Shown here piece by piece: positions 263 through 25,481 of a stretch of 30,302 nucleotides of DNA. Made by a program: the position numbers and the translations under genes. Position 1 is the first letter of the stretch. Each line of letters starts with the position of its first letter. The stretch covers positions 1-30,302 of the forward strand of contig JBDRZZ010000019.1 in the NCBI GenBank assembly GCA_039804165.1, written 5' to 3'. Under the pieces are notes generated by a model, which was not told where the DNA came from, did no database searches, and saw only the letters and a program-made list of their open reading frames with translations. The stretch is from a candidate division WOR-3 bacterium. GTDB taxonomy: Bacteria > Hydrothermota > UBA3072.

Positions 263-3200
263 ATGAAAAATAAAAATATTTTTATTCTCTTTTTATCTCT
301 TTCTCTTTTAGGAAAAACAGATGGAACAACAGGCCTTCCTCTTGGAGGTGTAGGAACAGGAGCTATAAAATATAGCGCTTGTAGTGGAAAATTTACGGCA
401 AATTTTCGAACCCCTACCAGAAATGGAGATTATCAGAACTTACCGAATACACAATTTCAACTATTCACTCAAAGAGGAGATTCAATATTGACTTGTGCCT
501 TATTGAAAGCCCAAGAGATTAATGGAAGGGTAGATGATGATGCAGTTTTTCCTCTACATTGGGTAAACTTTGGAAAATGGAATAATGTAGGTGTAAAAAT
601 GACTGCCTATCTCCCCTATTACCCCGATTCTCTACCACTATTATGTCATCCAGGAGCAACATTTGAGTTTACAGTTGAAAATTTAGAAAGCTCTTATGTA
701 ACAGTCGCCATTGCCTTTCAAATCAATACACCTATTACACCAGTTGGAATCCCCGACACAGGACTTTTAGCAAGCGATTCATCTCTTGAACTCTGTCTTA
801 TTGGGAAAATACATAATGGTTCAGGTAATCTAACCTATGGAAATGACACCGGCTTTTTTACAAGTGGTCTTTGCAACAACACTCTTACGGGAACAACAAA
901 CCGTGTTGCAATAAGAGTCTCATTATCTTCATATGAAAAAAGAAGCCTTCGTTTTATTCTTGCATGGTACAAACCCAACGAAAAAGAACACTACCAATAC
1001 ACTAACTTCTGGAATAATGCTAAAGAGGTAGCTATCTCAGCGCTTCACAATTTTGATGCTTTTAAGAGTAAGGCTGAAGAACTAGTACTAAGAATGCGAA
1101 GTTCTAATCTACCTGAGTGGCTTATTGATCAAACTCTTAACTCAACAATTAATCTTATCAATAACAGTGTTTATTTTCAAGATGGTCGGTATTGCCACAC
1201 TGAGGGACAGTGGAGTCCTGAAGGGACTATGGACCAAATGTGGCATGCAAGACAAATTTATACAATGATAAATCCCAATCTTGCCTGGCAGGAATTAAAA
1301 TGGTGGGCCAGAACTCAACATATAATGAACTATCCTGGCCAAATTCATCACGATTTTGGAACAAATTTTAATTACTGCGAATGGGACGATACAGAACATC
1401 CTGATTACCGACCTATATATGAGTGGGTTGATTTGAATTGTGGGTTTATAATTTCTGTTTACGAGGCATTTATCGCAACCGCAGATTTGGATAAACTTTC
1501 TTATTTCTGGCCTTATCTAAAAAAAGCTGGGGAACGAATCCTTACCCAGGTCCAACTCTATGGGAGCTCAGAGTATCCTTATACTTTTGAAAGCTCTTTA
1601 AGTACCTACGATGCTGGTGGTAATTCCCAAGCTTACAATACTGGTCTATCAATTGTGGCTTATCAAATTATGAGTTATTTGGCAAAGATTATGGGAGAAG
1701 TGGAAATAGCAAGTATTTACCAAAATGCTTTTGAAGTCGCAGTGGAAAATTTTGAAAAGAGATGGTTAGATAACACTTATCCTTGTGGAATTTATTGTGA
1801 GAGTGCTTTAGGTGGTCCGTGGATTGCCAATTTCTTAAAATTCGATCCTTTCTGGGAGAAACAAAAATTGGACGCTCTTTATTATACACTTTTTAATTAT
1901 TACGATCCTTTAAATAAAGGTCTAGGTTATCCAAATGGTTCTTACTCAGAATGGCAACCTTATCTCGTTGGGCATTTTGGAGGATTTTCTTTACAAACTC
2001 GTCGCTCTAATATATGGCTTCGGCTCCAAAAAGATATGTATGAACGAAACTATCTCAACAGAAATCTTGTGTTTAATGAACAGCTTGGAATTCCTCCAAA
2101 GGTTTCTTTGCCAACCTGGATAGCTACAAGTTCCTCTGGAACCAATCAGTATATTAGCATTCCTGTTTTATGGCGTAATTATTACAACTTAATAGGCTTT
2201 CATTACAACAAATATTCAAAAGAATTGTGGCTTGAACCCATTCTCTTTGACTCGTTAAATCACGAACTCCAAAATGCTCTAATAATCACTCCGGATGGTT
2301 ATGCAAAAATAAGTTACACTACCTATGGTGATTCCTATCAAAATCAACAAATTGTTTTCATTCCGGACAACTCAATAGAGGTTTCATCTATTTATGTATG
2401 GGATCTGTATACCGATTCTATAGATATAGTCCAAGTAAATGGAATAAAGACTACCTATCTCCGCACTGGAAATGGAGATCAATCTCATTTAAAAATAAAT
2501 TGGTCTGGAACAATAACCAATAGCGGCATTACCATTAAAATTGAGGGGAAAGCGAAACCAAGCATAGGAATTCCAGAACCTCCAGAAAATTTAAGAGGAC
2601 TTACCTTAAATTCAAGTCAAATTCTCTTATCATGGAGTCCTGTAGAGGGAGAGAACATAGGTTATATTGTAGAGATAAACACAAAGGAAGGTTTTAAAAC
2701 CCTCGATACAACCTCTGATACATCTTATTTGGAAACAGGTCTATTAAAAAACACAGCTTATAAATATCGGATTCGTTCATATAATACCCAACACATTTCT
2801 AATCCTACTAACGAACTTTTAGTGACAACAAAGGATGGAGGAAATGGCGAGGTAATTTTTGCCATAAATTCAGGAGGCGAAACTTATTTATCGAAAGATG
2901 GAATAGAATATATAAACGATGCTACCACAGGATGGGTTTCTGGTGGCTCTATTTACTCTACAACAAATCCTATAGAAGGCACTTTAGACGATAAACTTTA
3001 CCAGAGCGAACGCTATGGCGATTTTAGTTATAATATTCCTCTTGAAAATGGTTTTTACGAGTTGGTATTAAAATTTGCCGAAATATATTGGGAAAATCCT
3101 GGAAGTAGAATATTTCATGTTGAGGCCGAAGGGGAACATCTCATCCGGAATCTAGACCTTCTTTTTAGGACAGAGAAGAATACAGCTTACGATGTGGTTA

Positions 3201-3595
3201 TACCCGTAGAATTAAAAGACGGCGAACTAAACATTAATTTTATCACAAAAATTAATAATGCAAAATTAAGTGCTATGGAAATCAGAAAAGGAGAAGGAAA
3301 TGTAAACAATCCCGACTCTTCCCAAATTCCTAAGCAATATTTTATCAAACAAAACTACCCAAATCCATTCAACTCAATCACTAATATTGACTTTGGCTTA
3401 CCAGAAGAAACCCAAGTCAAAATAACCATTTACAATCTAATAGGGGAAAAATTGGCTATTATATTGGACGAGAAAAAAGAGGCCGGATACCATTCTATTA
3501 CCTTCTCAGGAGCAAATCTTCCGAAAGGGGTTTATTTCTACAAAATCGAAGCAAACAATTTTTCCCAAACAAAAAAATTAATCCTAATTAAATAA
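263..3595 (+). CDS. Secreted GH116-type glycoside hydrolase with FN3, malectin and type IX sorting domains
   Basis: Probably an exported beta-glycosidase of the bile-acid beta-glucosidase/GBA2 family (GH116, formerly DUF608). A hydrophobic signal peptide (about residues 1-20) is followed by the GH116 N-terminal signature 'GLPLGGVGTG'. The catalytic region carries 'HTEGQWSPEGTMDQMW' (E314, likely nucleophile) and 'STYDAGG' (D450, likely acid/base). These align by eye with the E441 and D593 regions of the Thermoanaerobacterium enzyme. Further domains are fibronectin type III (about 771-860), a malectin-like carbohydrate-binding domain (about 862-1010), and a C-terminal sorting domain (about 1026-1110) with 'NYPNPFN' and 'LPKGVYFYKI'. 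The sorting domain predicts export by a type IX system and cell-surface attachment or release. The ATG at 263 is chosen because it begins the signal peptide and no later in-frame start precedes it. The family is fairly sure; the substrate is unknown. Confidence 0.85.
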   Translation: MKNKNIFILFLSLSLLGKTDGTTGLPLGGVGTGAIKYSACSGKFTANFRTPTRNGDYQNLPNTQFQLFTQRGDSILTCALLKAQEINGRVDDDAVFPLHWVNFGKWNNVGVKMTAYLPYYPDSLPLLCHPGATFEFTVENLESSYVTVAIAFQINTPITPVGIPDTGLLASDSSLELCLIGKIHNGSGNLTYGNDTGFFTSGLCNNTLTGTTNRVAIRVSLSSYEKRSLRFILAWYKPNEKEHYQYTNFWNNAKEVAISALHNFDAFKSKAEELVLRMRSSNLPEWLIDQTLNSTINLINNSVYFQDGRYCHTEGQWSPEGTMDQMWHARQIYTMINPNLAWQELKWWARTQHIMNYPGQIHHDFGTNFNYCEWDDTEHPDYRPIYEWVDLNCGFIISVYEAFIATADLDKLSYFWPYLKKAGERILTQVQLYGSSEYPYTFESSLSTYDAGGNSQAYNTGLSIVAYQIMSYLAKIMGEVEIASIYQNAFEVAVENFEKRWLDNTYPCGIYCESALGGPWIANFLKFDPFWEKQKLDALYYTLFNYYDPLNKGLGYPNGSYSEWQPYLVGHFGGFSLQTRRSNIWLRLQKDMYERNYLNRNLVFNEQLGIPPKVSLPTWIATSSSGTNQYISIPVLWRNYYNLIGFHYNKYSKELWLEPILFDSLNHELQNALIITPDGYAKISYTTYGDSYQNQQIVFIPDNSIEVSSIYVWDLYTDSIDIVQVNGIKTTYLRTGNGDQSHLKINWSGTITNSGITIKIEGKAKPSIGIPEPPENLRGLTLNSSQILLSWSPVEGENIGYIVEINTKEGFKTLDTTSDTSYLETGLLKNTAYKYRIRSYNTQHISNPTNELLVTTKDGGNGEVIFAINSGGETYLSKDGIEYINDATTGWVSGGSIYSTTNPIEGTLDDKLYQSERYGDFSYNIPLENGFYELVLKFAEIYWENPGSRIFHVEAEGEHLIRNLDLLFRTEKNTAYDVVIPVELKDGELNINFITKINNAKLSAMEIRKGEGNVNNPDSSQIPKQYFIKQNYPNPFNSITNIDFGLPEETQVKITIYNLIGEKLAIILDEKKEAGYHSITFSGANLPKGVYFYKIEANNFSQTKKLILIK

Positions 3596-15368: not shown

Positions 15369-17402
15369 ATGTTACTATTTTTACTTTCAATAACAGTAAA
15401 TAAAAGCAATCTTTATTTAGAAACTCGCCTCTTTAATAATAGTGCTTATTCAGATTATATTTATATAACAACTGACGAAGGAGGCATTCTTTCTTTTAAT
15501 CCTGAAGATAGTTCATGGGCCACAATAAATTCTATTTCCGGTCTCCCCTCTAACAAAACAAAAGAGATTTTCATAAGAGGAGATTCTGTTTTTGTTCTTC
15601 TAAATGGAGGCATCGTAATTCTCAATAAAAGACTAGAAAGAATAAATTTCCAGGAAATAAATTCTCTATTTTTCTCAGACACCTCCATCTATACAATCAA
15701 GATAAATAAAGATAAAGTTCTTCTCGGATCCTCAAGAGGAATTCAGTGGTTTAACTTAAAAGATTTTGGCGCTCTTTCCAAAAAAGTAGAAAATAAAGAT
15801 TATGGCTTTAAAGTTTTTGAAATCTTACCCCTTGACACTTGTTTTTTAGTCGGAACAAATAGAGGTGTTTACAAAATATCTTCTAATTTAAACGATACAC
15901 TATTGATTAAACCCTTAGGAGAAACTTATTCTATTTTAGTTTCTCATCTTGGAATCTGGGCTGGTGGAAGTTGGGGATGCAAAGAAATTTTATCTGATAC
16001 AGGGAGTTTTTCGGAATACACAGTTCGGGACATTAAAGAAATAGATGAAAAGATTTACATAGGAACAAATGGAGGGCTTTATAAGTGGAGCGGAAATATT
16101 TGGGAAAAGATTTACGGAGGAGATATTAGAGGATTTTATAAGGTTTCTGATTCTTTAGCTTTAGTTGTAAGAGGAGAAGGAATTTTATTTGAAGGAACCT
16201 CTAATTTTATTTACCCTCCGGGAATCTCTTCAAATTTAGTAACAGACTTAACTCAAACTCCAGATGGTAAAATTTATGTGGTTCATAAATTTAGTAGAAG
16301 TATTTCTGTATTCGATGGAAAAAAATGGAAAATAGTGAATAGAAGAAATAACTGGAACCTTCCTGGAGGCTATCTTTTTAATATAGAATCCGACTCCAAA
16401 GGTAGAATATATTTAGGACTTTGGTATTGGTTTGAAAAAGATGATACTTCCCACATTCCTGTTATATTTTGTTGGGAGCCAAATAAAGATACAATGCCAT
16501 ACCCAATACTTCCACCTCTTTATGGTAGAACTATTAGTGGAATGCTCATAGATAAAAACGATAACTTATGGATAGGAATTATACGAAAAGACGGGAGTTA
16601 TGTCTTAAGAATGCAAAGAACAAACGAAAATTCTTTTGATTGGAGAATATACCAAGATCCTGAAGTTAAATGGAAAAGGGTGTTTGCTGAAGGAATAGAA
16701 GGAATTTATTGTGGAAATTCTCCCACAGATGGTGGAGCAGGTATTCACATATTAAAAGAGGACGGAAGGTGTATAAAAATAAGAGGAAATCTTGGTTCAA
16801 GCACAACTTCAATGACTTCAGATCTAATAGGGAATATATGGGCTGGTTTAGAAAATGGACTTGTATATATTGTTGGAGAAAGTATTGAAAGAAGTTATTC
16901 TACAGGAAAGATTGATGGATTAGCTACTGATTATAAAAAAGGAGTTTGGTGTTATAACTCTACAACAGGTTTAAGTTATCTTTCTCCCAATGGAAGTTGG
17001 GAATCTTTACCTTCAGAATTAAAGAATTTAGAACCATTTGATCTAAAAGATGTCATTTCTCCTCTTCACATTCTTGAACGCAATAAACTTTTTATTTGCA
17101 CTTATAAGGGATTATATGAATTTGAGTTAAATCTTAACGAAAAGGATCTCTACAAAGTAGATGTTTATCCAAATCCATTCAATGCTTCTATTAATGAAGA
17201 GCTTCACTTTTCTGCAAGAAACCTTGGAGGAAAAGAAATTTTAATTTACGATTTAACTGGGAATAAAAAAGGCTCCTATAAAGTTCCTCAAGGTGAAAAC
17301 GATTTCTCAATAATTATTGATCTTCCTTCAGGGTTATACATTTATCTTGTAGTAACTAATGGTGAAGTAATTGGAAGGGGTAAATTTGTTGTTGTGCGTT
17401 AA
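15369..17402 (+). CDS. Secreted beta-propeller protein with type IX sorting domain, PorZ-like in layout
   Basis: A 677-residue protein made mostly of short strand-turn repeats of the two-component-regulator-propeller kind, e.g. 'IYITTDEGGILSFNPEDSSW', 'INSISGLPSNKTKEIFIRGD', 'IYIGTNGGLYKWSGNIWEKI', 'GNIWAGLENGLVYI'. They probably form one or two multi-bladed propellers over about residues 20-590. The C-terminus (about 595-677) is a sorting domain: 'VYPNPFNASI', then 'LIYDLTG' and 'LPSGLYIYLV'. The N-terminal 'MLLFLLSITV' is a short hydrophobic signal. The layout (N-terminal propellers plus a sorting domain) resembles PorZ of the type IX attachment complex, but length and repeats alone cannot prove this; it could be any surface propeller protein. 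The ATG abuts the mazG stop codon and has no ribosome site. Confidence 0.7.
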   Translation: MLLFLLSITVNKSNLYLETRLFNNSAYSDYIYITTDEGGILSFNPEDSSWATINSISGLPSNKTKEIFIRGDSVFVLLNGGIVILNKRLERINFQEINSLFFSDTSIYTIKINKDKVLLGSSRGIQWFNLKDFGALSKKVENKDYGFKVFEILPLDTCFLVGTNRGVYKISSNLNDTLLIKPLGETYSILVSHLGIWAGGSWGCKEILSDTGSFSEYTVRDIKEIDEKIYIGTNGGLYKWSGNIWEKIYGGDIRGFYKVSDSLALVVRGEGILFEGTSNFIYPPGISSNLVTDLTQTPDGKIYVVHKFSRSISVFDGKKWKIVNRRNNWNLPGGYLFNIESDSKGRIYLGLWYWFEKDDTSHIPVIFCWEPNKDTMPYPILPPLYGRTISGMLIDKNDNLWIGIIRKDGSYVLRMQRTNENSFDWRIYQDPEVKWKRVFAEGIEGIYCGNSPTDGGAGIHILKEDGRCIKIRGNLGSSTTSMTSDLIGNIWAGLENGLVYIVGESIERSYSTGKIDGLATDYKKGVWCYNSTTGLSYLSPNGSWESLPSELKNLEPFDLKDVISPLHILERNKLFICTYKGLYEFELNLNEKDLYKVDVYPNPFNASINEELHFSARNLGGKEILIYDLTGNKKGSYKVPQGENDFSIIIDLPSGLYIYLVVTNGEVIGRGKFVVVR

Positions 17403-17410
17403 ATCATAAA

Positions 17411-19366
17411 TTAAGGCATTAATCCCCCCAGAGTCTCTCTTGTTATTTTAACTTCAGGAATACCCTTTAACTCAAAACTTAATCTATAATCCCAATCTTC
17501 TCCAAACTTATTTACAGACATTAAAATACGCCAACAATGCAAATCTCGGTTAAGATCCACACTTGTGTTTGTAATTTTATTTCTTTCAAAATCATAATGA
17601 GCATTAACCCTTAAAATCCAATTAGGAGTAGGATTAAACCCTACTCCTAAATCAGCTTGTTGGATGCGAGACTCCTTAGTAAAATCAATCGAATGTCTTA
17701 GATAAAGATCAAAAGGATTACCCTCAACATTACTTCTAAATTCTAAGTAAGTATTAACTCTTTTAGATCCAAACTCCTTTCCCTTTATATCATAAGAAGT
17801 AGAATAATCTTGTTTCAAAAAATCTCCTATCCAAAAACTTCCGTTAATAGATATAGGAGAAAATTCCTTTTCCTTTTGACGATAGTTAGTGGAAAAGTTT
17901 ATTGAGGCAAAATCATATCTTTTATCTCTGATCTTACATTGAAATAAGTTTGAAAGAGAGAGAATAAATGACCTTTGCCCATAAGGAAGAGAAAACTCGG
18001 CAATTGGAGAAACCTCAACTTCTTTTGGGTAAGGAGCATAAGAGAAAGAAACCGAAGGAGTAACAATATGCCTAAACTTACTTATAGGAGGAATCCCAAA
18101 AAAGGAAACTCCATATATATTTGTTTTTATTGCCATAGAAGACTCCCAGTGGTTAATTGTAATATTCTCTCTTTCATAATAATCACTCTCACCAGAAATC
18201 CCCATATTTAAATTGAAAATATACAAATTAAAATTTAAATTGGTTCTTCCAGAGAAACCAGAAGCCCAGTGATTAGTTTCATCTCTAACAAACTTATAAA
18301 AACTTCTAAAATTAACAAAACCTATCTTAAATGTTGGAAAAGTTAAATTAACTGAAGGCCATCTTTTATAAATTTCCTCTGTAGTAAGATTTTCGCGATG
18401 ATCGAGAACAAAATCTGTTCTTGCCCCTAAAATTTCTCCATTCCATGATAAACTATAATTTATCTCTTTCTCTAGAATTTTTTCAACTTCTCCAGGCTCA
18501 TAGTCCTTTGTATAATCTCTATCAGACTCCAACCTCGTATCAGCATTCAACCGAATCCCCCACATTTCTCCTTTAGTATTCCCTCTTATCAACCATCTCT
18601 CTTTTCCACTTTCTCTCTCTTTAATATAACTACCACTGAAATCTCCAATACTATAAGGAAGCAAATTCCATCTAAACTCGTCAATATGGAAGCTAATACC
18701 CTTTTTAGTATAATAATTTGAGTAAAAAATAAGATCTGCGTGGGGGCCTAAAGTTTGATACCACCCTATTTTCTTTATGTAATTTCCTCCATAAAAAGAA
18801 GTCCCAAACTCAGGCCTTAATAATCCTGAAGCTCTTTCCTTTTTTATTGATTGAAAATAAAACGGGACAAAGAAAACAGGAATATCTTGCACCAAAAGGA
18901 TAACAGGCTCAGCTACTAAACTCTCATCAATATTAATTCGCATCCTTGGAGAATAAAACCAGTAATGGGGAGGATCAAGTTCACAAGTTGTGTAATATCC
19001 ATCCTTTATTTTTAAACTTCCTTCTTTAAAGTATCTAATTCTTTTCCCAAAAAACCAACCATTCTCTACCTCTGTCTTTGCCTGATAAGCATCTCCAATT
19101 TCTCTATCCACATCATAACTCATTTCTTTTGCCTTTATTTCACTACTTCCATCATTAAAAACAACTTCTCCTTTAGCGGTCAGTTTTTTTTTATTTAAAT
19201 CATATAAAATACTATCGGCAGAAAGACTTAATTTACCTTGGTTTGTTTTCGCATTTCCATAAATTAAAACAAAAGAAGAGTCAACATTAAAGAAAATTCT
19301 ATCTCCAGAATAAATGAAAATTTCCTCAGAATTGGAAAGAAAAAATAAAAGAATAAAAAAGCCCAT
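17411..19366 (-). CDS. lptD: LPS-assembly outer-membrane protein LptD
   Basis: Outer-membrane translocon that inserts LPS into the outer leaflet. After a short signal ('FFILLFFLS') comes a periplasmic OstA/LptA-like beta-jellyroll ('GNAKTNQGKLSLSADSILYD', 'LTAKGEVVFNDGSSEIKAKEM', 'GYYTTCELDPPHYWF'). The LptD signature follows: 'EPVILLVQDIPVFFVPFYFQ' and 'RASGLLRPEFGTSFYGGNYI'. The remaining 450 or so residues are alternating aromatic strands of a large barrel. At 651 residues it is shorter than E. coli LptD (784). Its start is 31 nt after the lpxD stop, and no clear ribosome site is seen. Its stop codon is 8 bp from the opposing propeller gene's stop. It implies LPS or a comparable glycolipid at the cell surface. 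Confidence 0.88.
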   Translation of the reverse strand: MGFFILLFFLSNSEEIFIYSGDRIFFNVDSSFVLIYGNAKTNQGKLSLSADSILYDLNKKKLTAKGEVVFNDGSSEIKAKEMSYDVDREIGDAYQAKTEVENGWFFGKRIRYFKEGSLKIKDGYYTTCELDPPHYWFYSPRMRINIDESLVAEPVILLVQDIPVFFVPFYFQSIKKERASGLLRPEFGTSFYGGNYIKKIGWYQTLGPHADLIFYSNYYTKKGISFHIDEFRWNLLPYSIGDFSGSYIKERESGKERWLIRGNTKGEMWGIRLNADTRLESDRDYTKDYEPGEVEKILEKEINYSLSWNGEILGARTDFVLDHRENLTTEEIYKRWPSVNLTFPTFKIGFVNFRSFYKFVRDETNHWASGFSGRTNLNFNLYIFNLNMGISGESDYYERENITINHWESSMAIKTNIYGVSFFGIPPISKFRHIVTPSVSFSYAPYPKEVEVSPIAEFSLPYGQRSFILSLSNLFQCKIRDKRYDFASINFSTNYRQKEKEFSPISINGSFWIGDFLKQDYSTSYDIKGKEFGSKRVNTYLEFRSNVEGNPFDLYLRHSIDFTKESRIQQADLGVGFNPTPNWILRVNAHYDFERNKITNTSVDLNRDLHCWRILMSVNKFGEDWDYRLSFELKGIPEVKITRETLGGLMP

Positions 19367-19396: not shown

Positions 19397-20404
19397 TTAT
19401 TTATTTAAATCCTCAAGTTTCTTAACTCTATTAAAAAGTTCAGGCAATCTTTTAAAATAACTGATAAGCCGCATCATCTCCATCTTCCTAATAGCAGGAT
19501 ATCCAAAAACAACTTCTCCATCTTCCACATCTCTATCAACCCCTGATTTTGCCACAACTTTTGCACCTTTACCAATTTTTATGTGATCTGCAATTCCAAC
19601 TTGTCCTGCAATAACAGCACCATCTTCTATCTCACAACTACCACTAATACCAACTTGAGCAAGGATAATTACATTCTTTCCAATTTTAACATTATGGGCA
19701 ATATGAACTCCATTATCTATCTTGGTTCCCTCCCCAATAATTGTATCCCCTATTGTCCCCCTATCAATCATAGAAAGAGCTCCTATTTCCACCCTGTCTT
19801 CTATTACAACTCTTCCAATATGAGGAATAGCTTCAAATTTTTCTCCCACTTGATGATAACCAAATCCAGAAGAACCTATAACAACGCCAGGGTAAATTAT
19901 TACCTCTTTTCCAATCTTAGTATTATCCAAAATAATAGAATGAGGATAAATCACACTCCTATCACCAATCTCTACATCATTTCCTATATAGGAGAATGGA
20001 AAAATATTTACATCATTACCAAAAACACAGTTTTCTCCAATAAAAACATTTTTACCAACTTTTACATTCTTTCCCATCTTTACATGCTTTAAATTTTCCA
20101 AATTCTCAATTTGTCCTTCGCAAACTTTCGGCTTTTTCCAGTAGAATTCTTTTAATATTCCTATCATCGCACCTTTTACATCTTCCACCTTAATCCAAGC
20201 CTTAGCAGGACATTCCTTCACAGTATCTGGGACAATGCTTGCAGCTTTATCTAAACCTTTTATAGAAAAAACTTTTCTCCCGTCAAAGATAAAAACAAGA
20301 TGCCCTTCCCGAACATCTGAAATTTCAGAAATACCTTTTATTTCAAAATTAGAATCTCCCCTTACTTCTTTTTTTAAAAAATCTGCAATCTCTTTTATCT
20401 TCAC
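19397..20404 (-). CDS. lpxD: UDP-3-O-acylglucosamine N-acyltransferase
   Basis: Adds the second acyl chain to UDP-3-O-acylglucosamine in lipid A synthesis. The N-terminal uridine-binding domain ('[20 protein letters not shown]', '[15 protein letters not shown]') precedes a left-handed beta-helix of hexapeptide repeats from about residue 105 to 300. '[12 protein letters not shown]' contains the catalytic histidine (H237, equivalent to E. coli H239 in 'IAHN'). 'GSSGFGY' and '[17 protein letters not shown]' are the conserved binding loops. The tail ends with a helix ('[14 protein letters not shown]'), as in LpxD trimers. At 335 residues it is normal. The start is GTG, overlapping the upstream gene's stop as GTGA (20401-20404). 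Confidence 0.95.
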
Positions 20405-21354
20405 TTGTATAATTCGGCTATCTTAGGAAGAACTTTCTCAACAATTCGTTCTTTAAGATTTTCTTCCACTCCAACCTCGACGTTTTCAGAAGCTACAATC
20501 CCTTCTTTTTTTCTATCTACAATAGAATATTCAAATAAAATATTTCCTCCTTCAATCCAAACTCTCCCAATTAATACAAAAGTTATTCCAGACATATTTA
20601 GAAACTGTGTCGCAAGAGAAAGATTACTACTTACTTCCTCCTCATCTTCTATTGCTAAGCTCTTTTTTGTTTGAGTGAGATCAGCTGACTTAATCTCTTC
20701 AAAAGCTTTCCCCAAACCTTCTTTAATTGAGCTAAATATTAAATTTTTAATTCTACTTCCAAGACTTCTTGACTTAGAATCTGCATCTTCTTCCTTAAAT
20801 TTAAAGATGTAATACTCAATTTTCTCTCCTACCACTACCTCTGGAACAGACATTTTATTCAAAGCCTCTATTACCTTATTAGTTATATCATACATCTCCT
20901 CTGCGTATATAACAACCCCAGTAGAAACATCAAGAATTAAAGAAAAACCCTCTTCCTTCGCAATCTCTGAAACCACTGTATCTATTTTCTGTATTAGAGG
21001 TTGCATCAATTCTTTGTTTAATGTTTCTGCTTTACCATCTTTCCGATAAATTTCATTAATGTAATTATCAAGCTCAGCTTTCTTCTTTTGAATTTCCTCC
21101 ATCCTACGTAACTTTGCTTCCTCTGTCAGCATAAATGATTGCGTCTGCAAGTTTTTCTGAAGTTGCTCAAGTTCTTCTTGCCGTCGATTTATCTCTTTCT
21201 TCCATTCCTGAATTTTCTTCTCAAATTCAGCTTTTACCTCTTTTGCCTTTCCATACTCTGAAAGAATCCTTTGAGAATCAATATAACCTATCTTCTGTTG
21301 TGCAAAAATAGGCAATGCAAAAACAAAGAGAAAAATTTTAAAATTCCTTTTCAT
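20401..21354 (-). CDS. OmpH/Skp-family chaperone fused to a TolB-N/CsgG-like domain
   Basis: After a signal peptide ('[12 protein letters not shown]'), residues 21-166 match the OmpH/Skp periplasmic chaperone: the strand '[18 protein letters not shown]', a long charged coiled coil (about 40-115), and the closing '[29 protein letters not shown]'. Skp holds unfolded outer-membrane proteins on their way to BamA. Normal Skp is 160-180 residues; this protein has 317. The extra 172-317 has an alpha/beta pattern: '[11 protein letters not shown]' strand, helices, '[22 protein letters not shown]', '[20 protein letters not shown]'. This resembles the N-terminal domain of TolB-like and CsgG/FlgO-like envelope proteins ('gadyvl.G.v... 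l.D..tG.i'). The resemblance is by eye only. SD GGGAGGAG precedes the ATG. It overlaps its upstream neighbour by 17 nt and lpxD by 4 nt. Confidence 0.8.
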
Positions 21355-22297
21355 CTCTCCTCCCTTTTCCTTTAATAAAAGTTCCTATACTAAATATAAA
21401 TTCATTATCAGTAAACACTCCATAATATCTTCTATTTTCAAATATTATTGAAACCGGAAGCTCAAACTCTGAAAAAGATAAACCTCCCAAAATTCTATCT
21501 GCCTTCACACTAACCCCATTCCCCATAGAATAAATTTTACCATAACCCAACTTAAGAAATCCATAGGTAAAACCAAACAAACTCTCTTTCCTATCAAAAG
21601 AAAAACTTATATTCCCATTTTCTCCAAATGAGTAATTAAAACCAACCCTTAAAGGTTTATCCAGTTCAAAATCAGACTTCTCACCCATTGATTCTTTCTC
21701 TATTTCTTCGTAAGGAGAATAATATCCTCCAAAACTTAAATTCTCAAGATTAAAATTAAAACCTAAACCCAAAGAATAACCTCTAAAATAGATTGAGATA
21801 GTATCATAAACATCATGATATTGCCTAAAATCAATCCACCACTTCTCTTCTATTTTTCCTGTTAACAAATTAAAATCAGTCCCTAATGAAATTAAACCGA
21901 AGCTCTTCTTTAAGAAAATGCCGAAACGAGATAAGCCACCTTTCCTTATGAAATAATCGGTGCAATAATAAAAATCTTCCGAATCTTGAGTAAAAGCTTC
22001 TAAACGAGAGCGATAAAGGATTTCAAAACTTCCCCCAGTATAAAACCCAAAATGTAAAGGAATAACAAAAGATGTAGAATACAAATCTCCATCTCTTGTA
22101 TCAATATAATCATCTGTAAAGATAGAAAAATTAACAGAAATACAACTAGCAGTATCTGCAACTGCAGGATTTACAAGAACATTACCAATAATAGCGGGAT
22201 TTTCTGAAAATCCATTTCCTCCAACCCATTCTCCAGGAAGTTTATCCGAAAGATTAGGGTTTAAGGATAAAATAAAAATAAGAATTAACCTAATCAT
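21338..22297 (-). CDS. Probable outer-membrane beta-barrel protein, unknown family
   Basis: I do not recognise a named family. The ATG at 22297 gives a signal peptide 'MIRLILIFILSLNPNLS' and forms an ATGA overlap with the gene before it; a GTGGAG ribosome site lies about 8 nt upstream. A longer TTG-started reading (22315) would add six residues before the signal and is less likely. The mature protein starts 'GGNGFSENPAIIGNVLVNPAVADTAS', an 'NPA' pattern typical of FadL/PorV/UPF0164-like barrels. It continues as alternating aromatic-glycine strands such as 'SLGLGFNFNLENLSFGGYYSP' and 'LRVGFNYSFGENGNISFSFD'. No C-terminal aromatic residue closes it in the classical way, although the last residue is Phe. 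Its place between bamA and the skp homologue suggests a role in outer-membrane assembly or structure. Confidence 0.6.
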   Translation of the reverse strand: MIRLILIFILSLNPNLSDKLPGEWVGGNGFSENPAIIGNVLVNPAVADTASCISVNFSIFTDDYIDTRDGDLYSTSFVIPLHFGFYTGGSFEILYRSRLEAFTQDSEDFYYCTDYFIRKGGLSRFGIFLKKSFGLISLGTDFNLLTGKIEEKWWIDFRQYHDVYDTISIYFRGYSLGLGFNFNLENLSFGGYYSPYEEIEKESMGEKSDFELDKPLRVGFNYSFGENGNISFSFDRKESLFGFTYGFLKLGYGKIYSMGNGVSVKADRILGGLSFSEFELPVSIIFENRRYYGVFTDNEFIFSIGTFIKGKGRRDEKEF

Positions 22298-23298
22298 TTT
22301 GGAAACTCCACCCAAACAAATTTTATTTCTCCCCCTTCAAGCTTCTCAACCCCAATTCCTCCTAATTCCCCTTGTGCTTTTACAACAATGTGGAATGTAT
22401 CAAAAACCGGAACGTCTTTAAAGAAAGGAGCTAAATCAAAACTCATTGTGTCTTTCTCCGAAGAGTATATTGGATAAAATATATATCCCATTTTCATTAT
22501 TCGCGCTTCTACCCCAAAAGGAATTTTATCTTTAACCTTAAATGATAACTTCGCTTCTGCTACTTTATTTAAATGATTCGGCAAAGAATCTCTCGGGAAG
22601 AAAAGATGAGTCTGGATTGAAAGACCTCTTCCAACCAAAAGAGAATCCTTAAAAATCGTATCTTGAAAAGGATTCTTAATTATATAAATTCCATCCTTTA
22701 AATAGAATAAAAAATCTCCACTTGCATTTTTCGTTTTTAAGACGGTCCCCACAAGACCAAATAAATAAAATGAATCTGAATGAACAGCAAGTCCAAAATT
22801 ATTAATTGCATTAATTATGGAATCCCTTAAAGAAAGAGAATCTCCAAGAAAAATAAGAGGATTTGTGTCATTTATTGCTACAGTTTTTAAAGGATGCAAG
22901 GTATCAATAAGACGTCCCACATCACTCCATAAATAAATAGAATCCTCATCCCATTTCTCCTTAACTTTATAGAAAGTAATTAAAGCCCCTCCAGAGTCAG
23001 AAGCAAACTTAATAAAAAGACTATCAAAGCTATCCGGAATAGAATCAAATTTCATTATTGAATAAGAATCAAAAGGCCCTTTATTACCACAAAACAAATA
23101 ATAAGAATCTCCTGTAGGAATAGCTTTAACTTTTGTATAAATTGAATCAATCTTTATAGTTTTTGTAAAAACAGGAACTGGTGCAATGTTGTATTCCTTC
23201 TTAGATCCACACCCTATCCCAAATAACACTAAAGAGAAGAAAAAAAACCTATTCAACAATTTTAAAATGTTGTCCCTAACTGGAAATGAGGTTTCCAT
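22294..23298 (-). CDS. Predicted envelope lipoprotein with DNRLRE-like region, unknown function
   Basis: A 334-residue protein with a hydrophobic stretch 'FFFFSLVLFGIGC' and C30 as a likely lipidated cysteine. The lipobox is atypical (Gly at -3). The body is beta-rich with patterns like 'DSFDSLFIKFASDSGGALITFYKVKEKWDEDSIYLW', which recall DNRLRE-type jellyrolls ('vy.v...W.E..v.W'). This is a by-eye resemblance only. The ATG at 23298 follows GAGGG by 9 nt and overlaps the end of bamA by 37 nt. TTG codons just after the bamA stop would give a shorter signal peptide, so the start is not certain. It lies directly after bamA and overlaps the next barrel gene by 4 nt, so it may be an accessory of the barrel machinery or the partner of that barrel. 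Confidence 0.55.
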   Translation of the reverse strand: METSFPVRDNILKLLNRFFFFSLVLFGIGCGSKKEYNIAPVPVFTKTIKIDSIYTKVKAIPTGDSYYLFCGNKGPFDSYSIMKFDSIPDSFDSLFIKFASDSGGALITFYKVKEKWDEDSIYLWSDVGRLIDTLHPLKTVAINDTNPLIFLGDSLSLRDSIINAINNFGLAVHSDSFYLFGLVGTVLKTKNASGDFLFYLKDGIYIIKNPFQDTIFKDSLLVGRGLSIQTHLFFPRDSLPNHLNKVAEAKLSFKVKDKIPFGVEARIMKMGYIFYPIYSSEKDTMSFDLAPFFKDVPVFDTFHIVVKAQGELGGIGVEKLEGGEIKFVWVEFPK

Positions 23299-25481
23299 CT
23301 TCTTTTTCCCTCAAATAAATTTAAGTTACAACCAAAATCAACACCTATTATACCCATCATTGGTATCTCAACTCTAAATCCTATACCTACCCCATAGTAA
23401 AGATCTGTCATATCAACTTCCTTTAAATCCTTAAAACAATTCCCCGCATCTAAAAATATCATTCCATAACCCTTATCTGCAAAATTTAACCTAAGCTCAA
23501 GATTATTAAGAAACGCAAAATTTCCCCCTATATATTTTTTAGAAAGGTCCGGAACAATTACCTCATTGTCATAACCCCTCACCCCCCATTCTCCAACACC
23601 TCCAAGTAAAAATCTTTCAAGTAAAGGGACTTCTTTCCCTTCTCTTCCTAAAGCATATCCAATTCTTGTTCTATTCATTATAACAAGCTCTTTAGCAAAT
23701 ATATTCTTAAATTTCCTTCCTTCAAGTATTATCTTATGATACTGTCTATCTCCTTTTAGAATTCCTCCAGCATATTTAACTCCTATTGAGTAATAATCCC
23801 CAATTGTTGGAGCTATTTTTGAATCTCGAGAATCATATACAAGAGTATTATACAAAGAACTTTCCCAATTAAGACCGGAATCAAGGTATTTATATTCTCC
23901 AGAAGCGTAAACCTCTTGCCTTTCCAAACGATAAGTCAAAGAGGAAGTAAGATTCCTTTCTCTATTTAAAATTCTTCCAAGAGATATAGAACTTCCCGCT
24001 TCTTTTACACTATAATATGAAGCTCTTTCCCAATAAGTATTATAAAGACTAAATCCAAAAGAAGTAGGTGTATCAAAGAGCCATGGTTGGGTCCATGAAA
24101 AAGACATATTTCTAAGATACTTTCCTTCTTCTTTACTATAAGCAAGGGATTTTTCAAAAGCTCCACTAATCACCTGACCCGTCCCATTAAAATTAGGAAT
24201 TGTAACATTGAGACCTCCTGTAAGTCCTATACTTCCGGAATAAGCTATACTACCTGAAAAATACCCTGTGGGTTTTTCTGTAACTTTCAATATAAGATCT
24301 ATCGAATCAGAAGTTGGAAATTCCATATCTATTTTAATATCAGAAAAATAATCAAGTCTAAAAACATTTCTATAACTGTGCATAACTTTATTTCTCTGAA
24401 ATATCTCTCCAGGATAAATAACAATATTTCTTCTAATCACCTTATCATAAGTTTTATCATTCCCAACAACATTAATGTATCTTACATAAACGGGGTTACC
24501 TTTATCTACATAAAATTCAATATCAACTATAGAATCTTCAACAATATTATAATTAGGAGAAATTGTTGGATTTAAGTAACCAAAATCTGAATAATACACA
24601 GAAAGATCCTCAACTGTCTTTTTAATCTTTTCCTCAGAAAACAAATTTCCCTCTTTCCATTTTATCTTTCTTAAAACAAAATTAGGATCTTCTTTCCCTT
24701 CAATATTCGTCTTTCCAAAATAATAAGTTCTTCCTTCTTCCACTAAATAGTTGATTATTGCATTATTATTCTCATACTCCACATAAAAAGAATCTACTCT
24801 CGCATTCAAGAATCCATGATTTCTGTAAAAAGCCTCTATCTTTGGAACATCAGCCTCAAGAGAATCAACCTTAAGGCTATTATCCCTCCAGAAAGTCCAC
24901 CATCTTTTAGTTTTATTAGAAAGAACTTTTGAAAGTTTTTTCCCTGAAAGGACTTTATTACCAATAAAATTAATTTTTTTAACCTTATATTTCTCACCCT
25001 CTTTAATAACAAAAGTCACATTCACACCATCTTCTTCAACTTCCTTAGAAATTGAAATTTCTGTTCCAGTAAAACCTTTCTCCTTATACAAGTCATAAAT
25101 TTTACCTTTTATTCTGTGAAGTTTATATTCAGAAAGTAAAGCTGGAGGAGATAAATCTACGCAAGAAGAAATTTCCCCATCTTTTATTTTTTTATTTCCT
25201 TCGAAATTTAAAGACTTAAGCCTTGGGTTTTCTTCTACCTCAATTATAACCTCCACTCCACCTCCCTTTCTTTTAGCATCAAGTTTTATATCAGAAAAAA
25301 AACCTGTTCCATAAAGGGCTTTTATTGCTTCTATTCCTTCTTCCCTTGTCAAGATCTCCCCTATTTGAAGACCGGAAGAACGAATAACAAGAGAAGTGTC
25401 AACTTCTTTAACACCTTTAACACTTACTTCTGTTATTACCTCTCCATAAGGAAAAGCAAATAAAAAAAGTAACCCTATCAT
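23262..25481 (-). CDS. bamA: Outer-membrane protein assembly factor BamA
   Basis: Omp85-family insertase that folds beta-barrels into the outer membrane. A short signal ('IGLLFLFAFPYG') precedes five POTRA domains to about residue 400. Each shows the strand-helix-helix-strand pattern, e.g. 'TEVSVKGVKEVDTSLVIRSS', 'KSLNFEGNKKIKDGEI', 'KKINFIGNKVLSGKKL', 'YFGKTNIEGKEDPNFVLR', 'YINVVGNDKTYDKVIRRN'. The C-terminal barrel begins near 'GYFSGSIAYSGSIGLTGGL', has the loop-6 motif 'WGVRGYDNE' (R-G-Y in place of R-G-F), and ends in phenylalanine ('FQLGTTF'), the outer-membrane targeting signature. At 739 residues it is full length. It begins the outer-membrane cluster, has only a weak ribosome site, and overlaps the next gene. 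Confidence 0.95.
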   Translation of the reverse strand: MIGLLFLFAFPYGEVITEVSVKGVKEVDTSLVIRSSGLQIGEILTREEGIEAIKALYGTGFFSDIKLDAKRKGGGVEVIIEVEENPRLKSLNFEGNKKIKDGEISSCVDLSPPALLSEYKLHRIKGKIYDLYKEKGFTGTEISISKEVEEDGVNVTFVIKEGEKYKVKKINFIGNKVLSGKKLSKVLSNKTKRWWTFWRDNSLKVDSLEADVPKIEAFYRNHGFLNARVDSFYVEYENNNAIINYLVEEGRTYYFGKTNIEGKEDPNFVLRKIKWKEGNLFSEEKIKKTVEDLSVYYSDFGYLNPTISPNYNIVEDSIVDIEFYVDKGNPVYVRYINVVGNDKTYDKVIRRNIVIYPGEIFQRNKVMHSYRNVFRLDYFSDIKIDMEFPTSDSIDLILKVTEKPTGYFSGSIAYSGSIGLTGGLNVTIPNFNGTGQVISGAFEKSLAYSKEEGKYLRNMSFSWTQPWLFDTPTSFGFSLYNTYWERASYYSVKEAGSSISLGRILNRERNLTSSLTYRLERQEVYASGEYKYLDSGLNWESSLYNTLVYDSRDSKIAPTIGDYYSIGVKYAGGILKGDRQYHKIILEGRKFKNIFAKELVIMNRTRIGYALGREGKEVPLLERFLLGGVGEWGVRGYDNEVIVPDLSKKYIGGNFAFLNNLELRLNFADKGYGMIFLDAGNCFKDLKEVDMTDLYYGVGIGFRVEIPMMGIIGVDFGCNLNLFEGKRRWKPHFQLGTTF

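Follow-up and report, generated by a model that had tools for sequence, protein, structure and literature searches.

Gene and domain layout of the skp locus

The window analysed here is an entire contig of 30.3 kb from a WOR-3 genome of 1.95 Mb. On its reverse strand, bamA, skp and lpxD lie in one gene string that continues into an lptD-like gene (Table 1). Two uncharacterised genes separate bamA and skp. A synteny comparison found the skp-proximal one only in the family of the window, while the putative lipoprotein gene is kept in that family and in a few other WOR-3. The same comparison revealed that the order bamA-skp-lpxD is common to many WOR-3 and to phyla with a short Skp. The long skp gene (skp-long) is therefore an orthologous Skp plus an extra domain.

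Table 1 Features of the skp-long locus and genes discussed in the text. Positions refer to the window unless another contig is named.
Feature	Position	Strand	Basis or remark
skp-long, 317 aa, OmpH/Skp + C-terminal TolB-N/LpoB-like domain	20401..21354	-	intact ORF, ATG start
Probable Sec signal peptide, residues 1-18	21301..21354	-	by eye
OmpH/Skp domain, residues 21-165 (a strand, a pair of long tentacle helices and a return helix)	20860..21294	-	PF03938, AF2
Linker, residues 166-177	20824..20859	-	reduced AF2 confidence, pLDDT 66-78
C-terminal TolB-N/LpoB/CsgG-like domain, residues ~178-317	20404..20823	-	sequence profiles + AF2 fold
bamA, 5 POTRA + Omp85	23262..25481	-	PF07244, PF01103; upstream, same gene string
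Putative lipoprotein, uncharacterised, between bamA and skp	22294..23298	-	no Pfam/NCBIfam match; synteny
Second uncharacterised gene between bamA and skp; secreted protein, beta-rich by eye	21338..22315	-	no Pfam/NCBIfam match; synteny
lpxD	19397..20404	-	LpxD/Hexapep; 4-base overlap with skp stop codon
lptD-like LPS assembly gene, after lpxD	17411..19366	-	NCBIfam LptD E 6.7e-18
T9SS type A sorting-domain protein	263-3595	+	TIGR04183 44.2 bits, cut-off 23
T9SS type A sorting-domain protein	15369-17402	+	TIGR04183 34.8 bits, cut-off 23
SprA	G000:C3:104903-110377		PF14349 over cut-off

The initial annotation had described a Skp homolog that is about 150 residues too long but has a normal chaperone domain, and had raised the question of whether the fusion stays next to bamA in relatives. 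All three points were borne out. The OmpH profile PF03938 matches residues 21-165 with an E-value of 3.7e-33 and spans profile positions 1-141 of 141 (Pfam), so the chaperone domain is complete. The 317-aa protein runs on for ~150 residues past this domain, and the region that had been singled out (20401-20842) corresponds to residues ~171-317 plus the stop codon. In relatives, the fusion occurs in the bamA-skp-lpxD neighbourhood. A frameshift artefact as the source of the extra part is excluded, as the protein has a match in 59 of 60 relatives, with similarly long ORFs unless a contig edge truncates them.

The AlphaFold2 (AF2) model of skp-long contains the tentacle hairpin, with helices at residues 35-72, 78-103 and 108-135 that match 8gl8 and 1sg2. 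Judged by eye alone, residues 1-18 are Sec-signal-like. There is no cysteine among all 317 residues, thus skp-long is not a lipoprotein. With other Skp/OmpH proteins (PF03938) it shares the complete OmpH domain, the tentacle helices and the bamA-skp-lpxD order, but it differs from them by the added folded domain that makes up its extra length. Overall, skp-long is the Skp of the WOR-3 lineage with an added C-terminal folded domain.

Fold of the C-terminal domain

Residues 173-317 of skp-long alone gave no significant match in Pfam or among PDB sequences. Ordinary annotation would thus miss this domain, and relatives were required to recognize it. Among 56 aligned members, the Pfam families FlgO (21 members, best 9.4e-5), CsgG (8, best 9.8e-7), TolB_N (6, best 1.9e-4) and LpoB (6, best 6.7e-4) were matched, as were the TolB model TIGR02800 (22, best 1.7e-8) and the LpoB model (14). 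Searching PDB sequences with a profile of the C-terminal domain (C-domain) returned LpoB as the best match with an E-value of 1.7e-7, and TolB weakly. Using hhalign we obtained probabilities of 83-97% against TolB, LpoB, CsgG-like and FlgO-like proteins compared with 0.1-1.8% for three unrelated controls; the 83% for TolB is probably an underestimate, because the TolB profile included one wrong protein (L159).

The initial annotation had proposed a TolB N-terminal/CsgG-like fold from the sequence, and the structural comparison agrees with it. The C-domain modeled alone reached a pLDDT of 90.3 and a pTM of 0.83, and its best Foldseek matches are LpoB (2.2e-6), TolB (1.1e-5) and GNA1162 (1.6e-5). 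VIA-align superimposed the model on TolB (2hqs) with Z 13.8 and an RMSD of 2.1 Å over 121 residues; identity to the TolB N-terminal domain is 13-18%. FlgT (Z 13.3), PelC (11.4), LpoB (11.3), GNA1162 (10.4) and CsgG (10.1) followed, all well above the unrelated rows at Z ~7.8. With structure and sequence in agreement, we regard a TolB-N/LpoB/CsgG-type fold for the C-domain as practically certain.

The likeness to each of the known proteins is partial. Although the C-domain has the fold of the TolB N-terminal domain, skp-long ends after it, so that the C-terminal β-propeller of TolB is lacking, and the domain is fused to Skp instead. Both sequence-profile homology and fold connect it to the C-terminal domain of LpoB, which itself resembles the TolB N-terminal domain (PMC7267771). 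LpoB, however, is a lipoprotein with an N-terminal cysteine, in contrast to the cysteine-free skp-long. The core fold is also that of the CsgG/PelC/FlgO/FlgT/GNA1162 superfamily, in line with the weak Pfam matches among the members. Whereas CsgG is a lipoprotein that forms an outer-membrane pore with transmembrane hairpins, the C-domain model has neither added hairpins nor a lipid-anchor cysteine.

The full-length monomer was modeled with a pLDDT of 89.9 and a pTM of 0.52. Both domains are predicted with confidence, whereas the linker between them is less certain and so is their relative orientation. Its Foldseek list is a mixture of Skp and LpoB/TolB structures, consistent with a two-part design. 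Mean pairwise identity is 21% for the C-domain compared with 36% for the Skp part. The conserved positions of the C-domain are mostly structural in appearance and reveal no binding surface shared by the members, which, like the fast drift, speaks against a docking role. Such quick drift under a retained fold fits either a lineage-specific docking role or a structural role with selection at the level of the fold; it does not single out a particular partner.

A domain of this kind also occurs elsewhere in the same genome, where contig C41 encodes a 340-aa protein (L153:901-1923, reverse strand) whose N-terminal domain is FlgO/CsgG-like (hhalign 94%) and is followed by what resembles, by eye, a small β-barrel.

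Distribution of the fusion across WOR-3

The phylum set comprised 147 WOR-3/Stahlbacteria genomes from 37 families and 79 genera. An OmpH match was present in 142 of these, and all full-length matches lie in open frames of at least ~290 aa; shorter or sub-threshold matches proved to be fragments or other proteins. We found no Skp in the phylum set that had lost the C-domain. skp-long was present in 59 of 60 relatives, with ORFs of 307-373 aa except for contig-edge truncations. Among the collected loci, every long Skp sequence (66 of 66) was positive with the C-domain profile, although some genomes are counted twice and many of the sequences had also been used to build it; no short Skp was positive. 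The domain is thus confirmed by profile in these 66, while frame length alone suggests it in the remaining genomes of the phylum. Skp loci were detected with alignment A3, after a single-protein scan of the genome contigs had given no match; the whole-phylum alignment was too diverse for scanning contigs.

Named public Skp loci divide in the same way. Records of WOR-3/Stahlbacteria/TA06 type account for 26 of 80, including one labelled Cloacimonadota and one labelled 'bacterium', and encode proteins of 307-358 aa. The other 54 come from neighbouring phyla (Gemmatimonadota, Zixibacteria, Krumholzibacteria, Latescibacteria, Eisenbacteria, Neomarinimicrobiota, Balneolales, Ignavibacteria and others) and all encode 168-253 aa without the C-domain. 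In 18 genomes of these groups, any matches of the profile were to other proteins, e.g. lipoproteins and large multi-domain frames. Restriction of the fusion to one assembly, which the initial annotation had considered, is therefore ruled out; the fusion is phylum-wide and provides a molecular marker for the WOR-3 lineage. The skp neighbourhoods collected contain no stand-alone copy of the domain, which argues against its derivation from a neighbouring gene. The part of the literature that we covered contained nothing on Skp in WOR-3 or on a Skp/TolB-like fusion.

A putative docking function

Elsewhere Skp is a passive chaperone. The E. coli protein is regarded as a free, sacrificial holdase, and Skp in the Type 9 secretion system (T9SS) has recently come to be regarded as a fixed scaffold. 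Domains with the TolB-N/LpoB/CsgG-type fold mediate protein-protein interactions within periplasmic machines. Given this fold and the chaperone role of Skp, docking is the most economical reading of the fusion; since the same fold is also found in ring formation and in signalling proteins, it does not prove docking by itself. We consider skp-long a phylum-wide variant of Skp that is most likely a docking adaptor. For the fuller proposal of a holdase fused to a docking domain whose partner sits in an envelope machine, we see the balance as even.

In this proposal skp-long would act in the periplasm as a jellyfish-type holdase whose C-terminus permanently carries a docking domain. Trimers of E. 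coli Skp form around unfolded outer-membrane proteins (PMC13067283), and skp-long would presumably trimerise as other Skps do. Because the C-terminus of Skp is located on the trimer body, three docking domains may crown this body, facing away from the client cavity. The C-domain would then bind a partner in an outer-membrane envelope machine, most probably BamA/BAM or the SprA translocon, and loaded or scaffold Skp would be held at that machine rather than diffusing freely. BamA, encoded in the same operon, is a candidate partner, and the new design for barrel delivery that the initial annotation saw in such a fusion is a hypothesis.

SkpA of Flavobacterium johnsoniae, also C-terminally extended, may serve as a precedent for such a Skp fixed in an envelope machine. 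It forms a trimer within the T9SS outer-membrane translocon, and in the Extended Translocon this trimer holds the N-terminus of SprA (PMC10994853). One helix in the SkpA extension contacts PorV; that it can be deleted without reducing export (PMC10994853) counts against the docking proposal. A phylum-wide Skp that carries a known envelope-docking fold offers a natural handle on Skp docking outside E. coli. Moreover, a WOR-3 isolate, strain sy37, now exists (PMC12285271), thus the partner of the WOR-3 Skp can be sought directly.

Alternative roles of the C-terminal domain

As the TolB N-terminal domain is the best structural match (Z 13.8), the C-domain could work as one, binding a TolA-like protein and thereby a motor driven by the proton-motive force. 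The genome of the window has no TolB_N match even at an E-value of 0.1, an absence that is uncertain because the TolB_N profile is weak, and MotA/ExbB/TolQ-type proteins occur in 143 of 147 genomes, a count based on a MotA_ExbB match that also takes in ExbB and MotA. TolB_N is nevertheless present in 31 of 147 genomes, and those lineages carry the fusion too, which rejects a simple replacement of TolB and makes docking to Tol/Exb improbable. We judge it similarly doubtful that three TolB-like domains hard-wire Skp to a motor of Tol/Exb or T9SS type and so energise a cycle of delivery and release. In the TolB-bearing WOR-3 genomes examined (L155-L158), tolB adjoins a clpX-like gene. An LpoB-like role, in which the C-domain serves to activate or localise a class A PBP and links the outer membrane to peptidoglycan synthesis, would agree with LpoB being the best PDB sequence match of the profile (1.7e-7). 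However, the genome of the window gave no match to UB2H, where LpoB binds PBP1b, and only 8 of 147 genomes have a UB2H match above the cut-off. The genome also encodes a separate LpoB-like protein (TIGR02722, E 1.5e-23, under the strict cut-off of the model), so replacement of LpoB is unlikely, and we regard the LpoB-like role as very improbable indeed. Rapid sequence drift with a retained fold and no conserved surface motif would also suit a partnerless cap that only stabilises the Skp trimer or the client cage. Such a cap would have been kept over 37 families and 79 genera although a short Skp suffices elsewhere, and we find it quite unlikely.

Participation in Type 9 secretion is a serious rival to barrel delivery. 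Among solved structures, SkpA of F. johnsoniae, determined in complex with SprA (8gl8), lies nearest to the Skp part (phmmer 2.6e-15, profile 2.2e-33, Foldseek 4.2e-9); its binding to SprA is required for T9SS export (PMC10994853). A search of the 1.951 Mb of the window's genome, the one genome covered, revealed SprA (PF14349, E 1.3e-11), and two proteins in the window carry a T9SS type A sorting domain at their C-terminus. The lineage thus appears to use Type 9 secretion. A pattern search found similar C-terminal tails in more than a dozen further ORFs of the genome. Since the genome has one OmpH gene only, skp-long could serve mainly as a structural component of the Type 9 translocon, like SkpA of Bacteroidota; we consider this less likely than not, as a lone Skp in a bamA-lpxD operon suits a barrel role too, and SkpA may be nearest merely through kinship between WOR-3 and Bacteroidota. 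The C-domain would, with the same reserve, stand in for the mostly disordered extension of SkpA and its PorV-contacting helix. In the solved structure that extension is mostly unresolved apart from one ordered helix, and the sequence match to SkpA ends at about residue 183 of skp-long, before the TolB-like domain. Upstream of sprA, three consecutive genes for secreted PPIase/SurA-like proteins with Rotamase matches (L241:402-3970, forward strand, equal to G000 C3:100402-103970) precede a pdxA-like gene, which is followed by sprA.
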